IMG/VR virus record: IMGVR_UViG_3300001473_000072
Coordinates: 1 to 38,002 of that record
Length of the DNA stretch: 38,002 nucleotides
Strand: one strand, 5' to 3'
DNA from: a virus
A program made the position numbers and the translations under genes. Positions 24,853 to 33,016 of the stretch are shown here, in pieces. The first letter of the stretch is position 1. Every line of letters begins with the position of its first letter. The notes beneath the pieces were generated by a model. That model saw nothing but the letters and a program-made list of their open reading frames with translations. It made no database searches and was not told the origin of the DNA.

Positions 24853-25596
24853 TCACGTCGCCCGGCGGGCATTCTCGATATGGCACCGCCCCAGCGCGGT
24901 ATTCTGGCCAGCAAGGCGGGCAGCGTCCGGGATCAGCCCCAGGGCGCGCGCCATCCCCTCAAGGCAACTCTCCACCGACCGGCTCAGCGCGGCCACATCC
25001 CGGCGCTGGCCGGACCACCCCGCGCGCGTCAGAACGGATTTAACATCGCACCCCTCAAGGCACAGTGCATCCATCAATTGACGTGCCGTGATGGGGCGCC
25101 GCCCGCCCCCGCCCTTGGGATTGGGGCGCAGCACCACACCGGCACCCGACAGGAACGCCTCAACAGCAGCGATCGTGCGGGCATGGCGGATCCGCGTTGT
25201 CACTCCGCCGTCATTGGTGGCAGCGCCGCCATCGGACAAACCGCCTTCCGCCGATGCCCCGGCCACCGATCCGATCTTTTCCACCGCTGCCGCATAAGCT
25301 TCCGCCGCCAGGCGGCGGCCATCGCCCGCATCAATCCGGCGCAGAACGGCAGGCAGGCGGCGGCAGGTGGCGCGCACCGAAGGCGCCACAAGCTCGAACG
25401 CCTCAGCGCTGCCGCCAAAGACGGTTGGCGCCGGGGCGGTGCCCTTGGCCGCGATCGCCTCGACCGGGGCGCGGGCGGCACCGGCGGGCGCCCTTTCCCC
25501 CTCGCCAACCTCCGCCAGCACACGCCGCGCCGAAAAGGCCCGGATCATCTGCATGTTGATACCTTCCGCGATCCTTGCCGCCGCTGCATCCCTCAT
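24853..25596 (-). CDS. Hypothetical protein with helix-turn-helix-like C-terminal region
   Basis: 247 aa, not recognised. The N-terminal half is Ala-rich and charged. The middle contains RRIDAGDGRRLAAEAYAAAVEKIGS (about 86-110) and a GGxxTNDGG loop. The C-terminal part has RRPITARQLMDALCLEGCDVKSVLTRAGWSGQRRDVAALS, a short helix-turn-helix-like block (about 166-204). Start ATG with SD AGAGGG. It is expressed upstream of, and apart from, the late promoter, and has an operator (25670-25681) in its 5' region. A regulator of late transcription or packaging is possible but unproven. Confidence 0.55.
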   Translation of the reverse strand: MRDAAAARIAEGINMQMIRAFSARRVLAEVGEGERAPAGAARAPVEAIAAKGTAPAPTVFGGSAEAFELVAPSVRATCRRLPAVLRRIDAGDGRRLAAEAYAAAVEKIGSVAGASAEGGLSDGGAATNDGGVTTRIRHARTIAAVEAFLSGAGVVLRPNPKGGGGRRPITARQLMDALCLEGCDVKSVLTRAGWSGQRRDVAALSRSVESCLEGMARALGLIPDAARLAGQNTALGRCHIENARRAT

Positions 25597-26160: not shown

Positions 26161-26943
26161 TCAGAGCGTGCGCGCAATCAGATAGATGCCCGCATACCCG
26201 GTATCGCTCCGCTTAGCGGGGCGAAAGGAAGCCCCGCTGTCAGGGCAGCGGTAGGCGCCGGAAAGGCCGCGCAGGCAGTTGGAGAATGCCCGCCGCCCCA
26301 TAGGCGGGGAACCACTTTCCGCACAGAACGCGAGATAGGCATGAAACAGGTCGCGGCTGCGGGTCCAGTGCTTGGGATCCCCGCTGATCACACATTCCTC
26401 GCGCAGAAACGAATAAAGCGCCTCGCCGCGCGTCTCTGTCCCCCCAGGCGTTGAGACAACCTGCGGATCCGCCGGATCCTCTGCGGGAAGGTCCGGCAAG
26501 CCCATCTTGCGCCAGAGGATCTGCGCGGCCTGGCGCCCGAAGGTCAGACGCGCCTCCGCCACCAGCGCCTTGATATCCATCACGTCCGGTGTGACGTTGA
26601 ACTGGGCGGACCGTTCAGACGGAGCAGCCAGCCGCCCATGCCGCCACGCCACAAACATATTGATGATCTGCCGGGTTACAGCAAAGGCGTTTTCTGTCTT
26701 GCTTTGCGTGCAGATGTAAAACGTCTGGTGTTCGTTCAGCCAGTATTCACGCTTTTCTGGATTGTGTTTGTCTACGCGCGACGGCATGGCGCGCGTTACC
26801 TCCCCAAAACTACCCAGAGCCACCATGCAGCGCAAAATGAGCTTTCGGAAATCTCGCGCCCTAGAAAAGCCAAGAGCTTCTGCAATGTCGATATCCCGCA
26901 TCCGCGGCTCGCCGTCAAATTCCCGAATGGTCAGATCAAACAT
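26161..26943 (-). CDS. ant: Antirepressor-like protein with D5-type C-terminal domain
   Basis: 260 aa. Residues 1-105 (MFDLTIREFDGEPRMRDIDIAE, ALGFSRARDFRKLI, YWLNEHQTFYICTQSKTENA, RQIINMFVAWRHG) look like the N-terminal domain of phage antirepressor / Bro/Rha-type proteins. Residues 176-256 resemble the C-terminus of the phage helicase: GDPKHWTRSRDLFHAY against GDPTVFTRSRDLIDAF, and SDTGYAGIYL against SDTGYGGIRL. Its start lies inside the end of the upstream small ORF (8-nt overlap), so translation is probably coupled, as for icd-ant in P1. It would antagonise the 106-aa repressor. The gene symbol reflects function by synteny only. Confidence 0.65.
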   Translation of the reverse strand: MFDLTIREFDGEPRMRDIDIAEALGFSRARDFRKLILRCMVALGSFGEVTRAMPSRVDKHNPEKREYWLNEHQTFYICTQSKTENAFAVTRQIINMFVAWRHGRLAAPSERSAQFNVTPDVMDIKALVAEARLTFGRQAAQILWRKMGLPDLPAEDPADPQVVSTPGGTETRGEALYSFLREECVISGDPKHWTRSRDLFHAYLAFCAESGSPPMGRRAFSNCLRGLSGAYRCPDSGASFRPAKRSDTGYAGIYLIARTL

Positions 26944-27157
26944 GGGCCAGCTCCTCCAAGCCGCTGACCGCCTCGCTCACGGATTTGGCTTTGTCGTGCA
27001 ATGCGCAGGCCAGTGCATCCAGTGCATTGCACTTTTCCGCCTGACGATCAGACAGGTAGTCGGCAACGACAATGCGCATTGCGAGCGCCAGCCCCTCAAG
27101 CTCCAAGGCATCAGTGCCAACGTCGATCGGATGAATGATATTGGAATGAACGGTCAT
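26936..27157 (-). CDS. Small protein in the icd position, coupled to antirepressor
   Basis: 73 aa, acidic and helical (LEGLALAMRIVVADYLSDRQ; ALDALACALHDKAKSVSEAV), with no family recognised. SD GGAGGG lies 7 nt before the ATG, and it overlaps sequence repeated in the upstream C4-like RNA. The end of the gene overlaps the antirepressor start by 8 nt. By position it matches icd in the P1 immI operon, where the small ORF passes translational control on to ant. No sequence similarity to Icd is claimed. Confidence 0.65.
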   Translation of the reverse strand: MTVHSNIIHPIDVGTDALELEGLALAMRIVVADYLSDRQAEKCNALDALACALHDKAKSVSEAVSGLEELAHV

Positions 27158-27164
27158 CGATTGA

Positions 27165-27379
27165 CCCTCCTACGGTTGGTTTGATTTCCCAGCCACAAGA
27201 GGTTCCAATCTCTGGTGGCCAGACGCACAGGGTTGGAACTACCGCCCGTAGGAACGGCGCGCCCGAGGGCGCCCCTGCACGCCTGACCATAAAAAACCCG
27301 CGACAATTGGCGCGGGCTATCAAGCGCCTACGGACAGACGGGGTTCCAATCCCGGCAGGCCCTTTTTCGACCTGCACGC
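27165..27379 (-). ncRNA. C4-type antisense RNA and target leader (immI-like)
   Basis: On the minus strand the leader carries, in order, four elements. First, a GCAGGT/GCCTGC hairpin at about 27355-27375. Second, copy 1: TTGGAACC (27342-27349) and CCGTAGGC (27326-27333), then a CCCGCG terminator hairpin. Third, copy 2, complementary: TCCTACGG (27246-27253) and GTTCCAAC (27232-27239). Fourth, copy 3: GATTGGAACC (27201-27210) and CCGTAGGAGGG (27165-27175), which includes the SD of the small ORF. Order and orientation allow copy 2 to pair with copy 1 or copy 3. Two short antisense boxes upstream of a coupled ORF-antirepressor pair is the C4 arrangement of phages P1/P7. The 106-aa ORF across the region is not a gene. 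Confidence 0.7.
27291..27316 (-). terminator. Terminator hairpin ending the C4-like RNA
   Basis: Minus strand: stem CCCGCG/CGCGGG with an 8-nt loop, followed by TTTTTT (27291-27296). It lies between the two antisense boxes and the antirepressor genes, so it would release the short RNA while some transcripts read through. Confidence 0.7.
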
Positions 27380-27446
27380 CAAGGTTGCCCATCCGCCCGC
27401 AGTGTGTCAAGCACTGAATATAGGTGCACACGATGCGCTTAAAGGG

Positions 27447-27475
27447 ACAAAATCACCTTTAAAGGTTTATTGCAA
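27447..27475 (-). promoter_or_regulatory. Promoter for the C4-antirepressor operon
   Basis: Minus strand: TTGCAA (27470-27475), 17-bp spacer containing the operator, TTTTGT (27447-27452). The arrangement is nearly the same as at 32520-32547. The -10 box is weak, so confidence is moderate. Confidence 0.45.
27455..27466. promoter_or_regulatory. Operator ACCTTTAAAGGT (perfect palindrome)
   Basis: A perfect 12-bp palindrome between the divergent C4-antirepressor leader and the lipoprotein gene. The AAAGG part also lies about 9 nt before the lipoprotein ATG, where it may serve as its SD. A repressor bound here could act on both. Confidence 0.7.
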
Positions 27476-27949
27476 ATGAAATTTGACGCCTTCAAAGCAT
27501 TTAAGAGATCCACCCACCAACTTCTTGCCATCTGCGTTTTGCCACTGGCAGCTTGTGTACCCTCCTTGATGCCCCTCACGATCCAAATGGCCGAAAACCC
27601 TGAGCGAGTGGCCAACCTGAGCACAGCAGAGCTTTGCCAAACAATCAGGATCTCCGAAAATTCAGCCGATTGGAGCGAAAGCGACAAAAAAGCCGCCTAC
27701 GATCTACTGAGAAAACGCGGCTTCTCCAAACGAGATGCAGACTTAATCTCCGACAAAGGCGAGTACTACGGGACAGGGATGACCTATAAGGGACTGGTTT
27801 GCTCGACCGGCACCCCGACACGGGTAAACAAGTCCTTTTACCAGTACTCTGGCCACAATTGGCAAGTCGTGCTGGGAGATCATTCCGATTTTGTCTACCT
27901 CCGCGGGAATGGAACAGAGAGCGGCATGAAAGTTACAAGCTGGAACTAG
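27476..27949 (+). CDS. Lipoprotein of unknown function (possible lysogenic conversion gene)
   Basis: 157 aa from the ATG at 27476 (a TTG lies two codons upstream). A basic N-terminus, a hydrophobic stretch (QLLAICVLPLAAC) and lipobox LAAC predict a lipoprotein. The mature part has no recognised domain and one DADLISDKGEYYGTGMTYKG block. It is on the strand opposite to all neighbours between 25 and 32 kb, has lower GC, and sits beside an operator, all typical of a phage 'moron' gene. It converges on the helicase gene with 12 nt between the stops. Confidence 0.65.
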   Translation: MKFDAFKAFKRSTHQLLAICVLPLAACVPSLMPLTIQMAENPERVANLSTAELCQTIRISENSADWSESDKKAAYDLLRKRGFSKRDADLISDKGEYYGTGMTYKGLVCSTGTPTRVNKSFYQYSGHNWQVVLGDHSDFVYLRGNGTESGMKVTSWN

Positions 27950-32695: not shown

Positions 32696-33016
32696 ATGCG
32701 ACCAGAGACCGAACGCAAGCTGGAAAACGCACGCACCAACTTAAAGATCCTCGTAGCGCTCGACGACCGAAGCGCAGCCGAAATATCCCGAGAAGCCGGG
32801 TTAAGCGTTAATGTTCTAGGCAAATACCTTCGTGGTGAAACCATGATAAATTTTGGCAACCTTCAGTCCATCTGCGACGTCTTAGGGACCCCCATTGCAC
32901 TGATCACCTCCGACCGGCAGATCACCCCCGCGCGCATTCGTTTGTACCGAATTCTTGACCGCATGAGCGATGAGGAGCTATTGGCCTTCATTGAGAAAGA
33001 AAAGGGCGGCTCCTGA
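32696..33016 (+). CDS. Small XRE-family repressor (CI-like, no protease domain)
   Basis: 106 aa. The helix-turn-helix RSAAEISREAGLSVNVLGKY (about 25-44), with LRGETMINFGNLQSICDVLG after it, is a standard XRE/CI DNA-binding domain. A short C-terminal helix (ARIRLYRILDRMSDEELLAFI) may mediate dimer contact. There is no LexA/S24 peptidase region, so SOS-induced self-cleavage is not expected. It is divergent from the early operon, has SD AAGGA and its own operator-bearing promoter, and ends at a strong terminator. It is the best candidate for the ACCTTTAAAGGT-binding protein. Confidence 0.75.
   Translation: MRPETERKLENARTNLKILVALDDRSAAEISREAGLSVNVLGKYLRGETMINFGNLQSICDVLGTPIALITSDRQITPARIRLYRILDRMSDEELLAFIEKEKGGS

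Follow-up and report, generated by a model that had tools for sequence, protein, structure and literature searches.

The leader upstream of the antirepressor-like gene in the window (i.e. the whole IMG/VR virus record IMGVR_UViG_3300001473_000072, 38,002 nt) very probably serves a temperate phage as an immunity leader of the C4/immI type, in which an antisense RNA would repress antirepressor synthesis and a terminated upstream copy of its target would act as a decoy. Repression by C4 and the existence of free C4 RNA are established in P1/P7; judged by its sequence, the leader is of this known kind and the locus a further example of it. Of wider interest is that IsrK and C4, perhaps together with sRNA-Xcc1, can be unified. 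We consider it likely that IsrK (a terminated upstream-target RNA titrating C4), C4, and sRNA-Xcc1 (in origin a C4-like immunity RNA) belong to one phage antirepressor-leader circuit of target/antisense/target box copies, in which orf45 of Gifsy-1 corresponds to C4 plus a2/b2.

Leader anatomy and identification of the C4 RNA

Three copies of a two-box element were observed in the leader (Table 1). Copy 1 (a1, b1) is followed by an intrinsic terminator, copy 2 carries the complementary boxes (b′, a′), and b2 of copy 3 (27175-27169) overlaps the SD of the icd-like ORF (27171-27166). The initial annotation had named the box strings, the terminator, and the inclusion of the small-ORF SD in the second box of the third copy. 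All were found on the minus strand, in the right order for pairing and as a collinear two-box match.

Table 1 Features of the leader region and its surroundings, with sRNA-Xcc1-type elements of related records
Feature	Record	Position	Strand	Basis or remark
Operator-like palindrome ACCTTTAAAGGT, putative repressor operator	window	27455..27466		
Leader promoter, -35-like TTGACA	window	27405..27410	-	sequence
Leader promoter, weak -10-like CAACCT	window	27382..27387	-	17-bp spacer
Short IsrK-like RNA: a1/b1 element ending in its own terminator (proposed decoy for C4)	window	27291..27375	-	RF01394 match
Box a1 TTGGAAC	window	27343..27349	-	sequence
Box b1 CCGTAGG	window	27327..27333	-	sequence
Intrinsic terminator between b1 and C4	window	27295..27318, T-run to 27291	-	
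C4 antisense RNA (predicted)	window	27211..27294	-	RF01695, 67.8 bits, E 3e-11
Box b′ CCTACGG, in C4 P3 hairpin	window	27246..27252	-	
Box a′ GTTCCAA, between P3 and 3′ strand of P1 stem	window	27233..27239	-	
Box a2 TTGGAAC	window	27202..27208	-	
Box b2 CCGTAGG	window	27169..27175	-	overlaps SD of icd-like ORF
SD AGGAGG of icd-like ORF	window	27166..27171	-	ATG 27157 after 8-nt spacing
icd-like leader ORF, 73 aa	window	26936..27157	-	no family match
Antirepressor-like protein, 260 aa	window	26161..26943	-	Bro-N-like N-terminal, D5-C-like winged-helix C-terminal domain
HTH repressor-like gene, candidate antirepressor target	window	32696..33016	+	phrog_4583 transcriptional repressor, E 2e-6
sRNA-Xcc1-type RNA	L142	2757-2849		
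sRNA-Xcc1-type RNA	L145	2757-2849		
sRNA-Xcc1-type RNA in the record of L144	L152	800-884 (= G004:C1:29099-29183)	-	65 bits, above cut-off

A search with the Rfam C4 model (RF01695, curated cut-off 45 bits), which the initial annotation had proposed as a check, gave a minus-strand match of 67.8 bits covering copy 2. Since the C4 sequence and structure map there, copy 2 (27294-27211) is taken as the predicted C4 RNA; in a′ and b′ it carries the complements of a2 and b2 at the SD of the icd-like ORF. A C4 covariance match was present in every close relative. For L139, no C4-like element was recognisable with Rfam or by eye. By analogy with P1, where C4 is processed by RNase P to about 77 nt before GG according to PMC5320573, the mature RNA may span about 27288-27214, with the GG at 27288-27287 as the potential processing point.

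The initial annotation had instead placed the C4-like RNA on copy 1, ending near 27291, with copy 2 choosing between that RNA and the SD region. Copy 1 is followed by the terminator and probably gives a short RNA, but the RF01695 match lies on copy 2, and copy 1, which has the same sense as a2/b2, could therefore not repress by pairing at the SD. This reading is almost certainly wrong, being refuted as to which copy is C4; an RNA ending near 27291 would rather be a1/b1- or IsrK-like. The dual pairing of copy 2, regarded as unusual, turned out to be canonical, since P1 has exactly the same order (its record annotates a1, b1, c4, a2, b2, icd, and ant1) and the arrangement is common to 76 loci. 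Because P1 and these loci share it, there is also no sign of the suggested action of C4 in a manner different from P1. Matches of Leu_leader, Scr6925, and the Betaproteobacteria toxic sRNA in the leader scored at chance level and were rejected.

The assignment to the C4/immI type, as originally made, is thus supported by covariance match and element order. As in P1/P7, a1, b1, C4, a2, and b2 with the SD are followed by a small ORF and an overlapping antirepressor or antirepressor-like gene, the noted order c4, icd-like, ant-like being present; the C4 fold and the operator-like site upstream of the promoter are shared as well. The window differs from P1/P7 in its box sequences, in the sequence family of the antirepressor, and in the relation of the phage to Rhodobacteraceae phages; a family search detected no similarity of the 73-aa ORF to P1 Icd.

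Pairing and covariation of the boxes

Among 2000 dinucleotide shuffles of the target, the collinear two-box match was equalled 16 times for copy 2 with copy 1 and twice for copy 2 with copy 3. Far stronger against chance is the comparative test. Its 76 distinct C4 loci, P1 and Gifsy-1 among them along with many IMG/VR contigs, contributed 20 different a′ and 47 different b′ sequences. For each of a1, a2, b1, and b2, complementarity within a locus exceeded that across loci, with 0 of 5000 permutations reaching the observed value, a figure that is not an exact probability because the 76 loci are related. The boxes are not a product of chance.

Five leaders were aligned, with a1/a′/a2 reading TTGGAAC/GTTCCAA/TTGGAAC in the window, TTGGCGT/ACGCCAA/TTGGCGT in L003, TTGGCCT/AGGCCAA/TTGGTCT in L005, TTGAAGC/GCTTCAA/TTGAAGC in L004, and TTGGTCT/AGGCCAA/TTGGCCT in L144. 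Between a1/b1 and a′/b′ all 70 cells pair, and 8 of 14 pairs have changed on both sides; between C4 and a2/b2, 94.3% of the cells pair and both sides have changed in 6 of 14. Neither covariation score was reached in 500 shuffles each. Minimum-free-energy co-folding, a method unable to form kissing pairs, gave no gain for C4 with a2/b2; co-folding and duplex energies take no account of kissing pairs or of the cost of unfolding and were therefore disregarded.

Conceivably, the leader could act in cis only, alternating between an a1/b1-a′/b′ fold and the C4 fold without any free sRNA mattering, as in structures A/B proposed for Gifsy-1 (PMC4825925). The RNAalifold consensus of the leaders points in this direction, as it pairs a1/b1 with a′/b′ and extends into the 5′ strand of the C4 P1 stem. 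Such a switch leaves the covariation of a2 and b2 with C4 unexplained, however, and free C4 is established in P1/P7, which makes it improbable.

Phage, relatives, and downstream genes

A temperate phage is indicated by two genes, one for an integrase and one for a small HTH repressor-like protein. Its host probably belongs to the Rhodobacteraceae, as the nearest matches of the terminase are those of Paracoccus, Dinoroseobacter, and Rhodobacter phages. Searching viral contigs with the antirepressor-like protein gave four relatives, one of them identical across the protein, and a profile of the protein added more distant ones. In GTDB genome contigs, neither patterns nor protein queries turned up close relatives.

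The icd-like ORF had no Pfam or PHROG match and is 45-50% identical in L003, L004, and L005. It overlaps the antirepressor-like ORF (start 26943) by 8 nt in the window, which makes translational coupling plausible; the two ORFs do not overlap in L004, and L144 has no icd-like ORF. The 260-aa protein is a putative antirepressor. Profile scores were weak in both Pfam and PHROG (Pox_D5, 21.8 bits with a cut-off of 21.4; Bro-N, E 0.003). Fold searches matched viral Bro-N antirepressors (best E 1.3e-6) and the RFX winged helix (probability 0.97 but E 0.2); against PDB folds nothing significant beyond this winged-helix hint was found. Both domains suit an antirepressor, the predicted activity of the protein.

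Two further ORFs were noted in the surroundings. A 247-aa ORF (24853-25596, minus strand), located between the antirepressor and packaging genes, matched nothing in Pfam or PHROG. The second, a 159-aa ORF (27470-27949, plus strand), is oriented divergently to the leader promoter and shows by eye a signal peptide and a lipobox-like LAAC; possibly, it is a lysogenic-conversion lipoprotein gene.

Promoter and candidate operators

The -35-like TTGACA is identical in the window, L003, L004, and L005, with CAMCCT 17 nt on, and reads TTGACC in L144. A strict sigma-70 scan did not report the leader promoter. The palindrome ACCTTTAAAGGT and near copies of it occur at five sites in the window (24803, 25670, 27455, 32528, and 36283) against 0.26 expected, and are perfect at 27455 and 32528. 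The former site precedes the leader TTGACA by 45 bp, at a position matching that of the C1 operator Oc4 in P1; the latter is located beside or upstream of the repressor-like gene. L004 likewise has an operator-like palindrome upstream of its leader promoter. All five sites are candidate operators of the phage repressor.

Proposed mechanism

By analogy with the known systems, we infer the following scheme of how the RNAs are expressed and processed in this phage, with a1/b1 as the decoy and the downstream protein as the antirepressor. The promoter with TTGACA at 27410, probably controlled by the repressor via the site at 27455, would give two products: (i) transcripts ending at the terminator near 27291, i.e. 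a short IsrK-like RNA with a1 and b1; and (ii) read-through RNA containing C4, which would fold into P1/P2/P3 and be excised (RNase P in P1). Free C4 would use b′ and a′ to pair with a2 and b2 across the icd-like SD and would block translation, so that the coupled antirepressor gene would be silenced and lysogeny kept. The short a1/b1 RNA would occupy the same boxes of C4 and titrate it; rising promoter activity would therefore tip the balance toward antirepressor synthesis and induction.

The phage would thereby have a second layer of immunity and, with it, a code of specificity: heteroimmunity should depend on a small number of bases in each box that change jointly at three places. The old question of the purpose of the a1/b1 copy in P1 becomes directly testable.

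An IsrK-like RNA upstream of C4

Copy 1 with its terminator is the upstream a1/b1 target and resembles IsrK. The isrK model (RF01394) matched the window at 27375-27291 on the minus strand (44.1 bits, E 3.5e-8) and relatives at 48 and 44.8 bits, and c4-a1b1 (RF03163) matched the window at 16 bits. Because the curated cut-offs (50 and 46.7 bits, respectively) were not reached, we do not claim membership in either family for the window. Like copy 1, c4-a1b1 is an upstream target of C4; it was described for gamma-Proteobacteria and phages (PMC2864571).

The arrangement of the isrK type, a terminated a1/b1 RNA directly upstream of C4, is present in the window and recurs widely. In 34 records, chosen by C4 pattern, ant similarity, similarity to the window leader, or as references (Gifsy-1, P1), and thus nearly all picked via C4 or ant rather than isrK, every one of the 38 C4 copies was immediately preceded by a same-strand isrK match; the match was above cut-off in 29 of the 34 records. 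Conversely, C4 scored above cut-off directly downstream of isrK in seven of seven further phages, taken from outside the Stx-converting or EHEC-derived phage records with isrK matches; six were found via isrK similarity (three without a C4 blast match) and APSE-7 came from the C4 match list. This suggests that IsrK of Salmonella is the upstream half of a C4 switch.

The isrK and c4-a1b1 matches overlap in Gifsy-1 and P1. In Rfam, isrK sits outside the C4 clan despite these overlapping matches. In the literature searched, isrK and 'C4 antisense' were mentioned jointly only in a Xylella table, which lists them 46 nt apart without remark (PMC12189769); a review covers IsrK and C4 RNAs, each separately (PMC12197685). 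In the APSE-7 record, isrK and C4 are annotated next to each other ahead of a Bro-N gene (L159:492-683), with a comment that C4 is antisense to none of the phage's transcripts. Downstream of this C4, a2- and b2-like boxes are visible.

The Gifsy-1 locus

Gifsy-1 (L010:917-732, minus strand, with isrK numbered from position 917) shares with the window a terminated a1/b1 RNA, C4 (69 bits), a2/b2, and an antirepressor-like gene, and differs in having no icd between leader and anrP. Its orf45 (45 aa, nt 107-244) starts within the C4 model match (nt 103-186), takes in a2 (nt 192-199), and extends into the start of anrP. By position, the published "orf45" stretch coincides with the predicted C4 RNA plus a2/b2. 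Since translation of orf45 was reported (PMC4825925), the stretch may be used doubly, as coding sequence and as RNA. No mention of P1, P7, immI, or the c4 repressor was found in the text of this 2016 paper (PMC4825925). With the C4 reading, a mechanistically dissected IsrK locus would be tied to the P1 system and its data read more simply.

The published mutations map to a1 (G28A, G31A) and a′ (C159U, C162U). The a′ mutants derepress to 484 and 926 units vs 4 and are the most derepressed single mutants of the set (PMC4825925 Table 1), and the compensatory a1/a′ double mutants still reach 224 and 327 units, i.e. 56-80 times wild type (PMC4825925). The double mutants fit an a′ still unable to pair with a2, whereas an a1-a′ structure alone, as the cis-only switch would have it, fits less well.

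The a1/b1 copy could also be an attenuator rather than a decoy if C4 and a1/b1 in the nascent RNA promoted termination, as with the CI RNA of P4. The latter is an antisense RNA processed from a leader with targets (seqA/seqB/seqC) on both sides (PMC4825925 discussion); it differs from the C4 switch in controlling replication genes via transcription termination and is likened to it by description. The comparison was raised by the Gifsy-1 authors themselves, who found that a1 mutations in cis increase anrP expression (PMC4825925). An intrinsic terminator between b1 and C4, detected in 75 of the 76 C4 loci (in P1, the only locus without one, a comparable hairpin has a larger loop), would suit such a role as well. 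However, short IsrK supplied in trans raised anrP translation about 139-fold and transcription 8-fold, and co-expression of the STnc1160 region did not increase repression (PMC4825925). Moreover, b2 overlaps the SD in the window and its relatives, which indicates translational control. Attenuation thus seems possible, if rather doubtful.

The preferred reading of a1/b1 as a decoy is qualified by two observations. Since changing a1 in cis increases expression in Gifsy-1, a1/b1 must do more than act as a decoy, and pairing in cis represses as well. Furthermore, IsrK and STnc1160 are highly transcribed in Gifsy-1 lysogens under all conditions tested (PMC7067206), so that a decoy alone would be insufficient.

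sRNA-Xcc1-type RNAs

In Xanthomonas and Xylella, sRNA-Xcc1 is discussed as a virulence-linked RNA. It resembles C4 in topology (P1, P2, P3 with the b′ loop, a′, P1′), in having its own co-varying boxes, and in its place before related antirepressor-like genes; it differs in conserved sequence and lies outside the C4 clan. It was not found in the window. Among the more distant relatives of the antirepressor, L142, L145, L143, L140/L141, and L149 have sRNA-Xcc1 (RF02221) matches at the place of C4, immediately ahead of Bro-N-like genes, at 49 to 24 bits and hence below the cut-off of 53 bits. For three of the four box pairs, no permutation exceeded own-locus pairing; a2 gave a weaker result (36/720). 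These likenesses support, without proving, a place for sRNA-Xcc1 in a circuit of the C4 kind. In prophages, RNAs that carry an isrK or sRNA-Xcc1 annotation are predicted to be components of antirepressor switches.

Searching viral contigs with exact patterns for more sRNA-Xcc1-like loci returned only the two known ones, and none for a third variant; blastn of the L152 element against phage records found none. This element, in the record of L144, precedes a second Bro-N-like gene. The record (G004) thus apparently holds two circuits in one phage, C4 and sRNA-Xcc1-type, with separate antirepressor-like genes.
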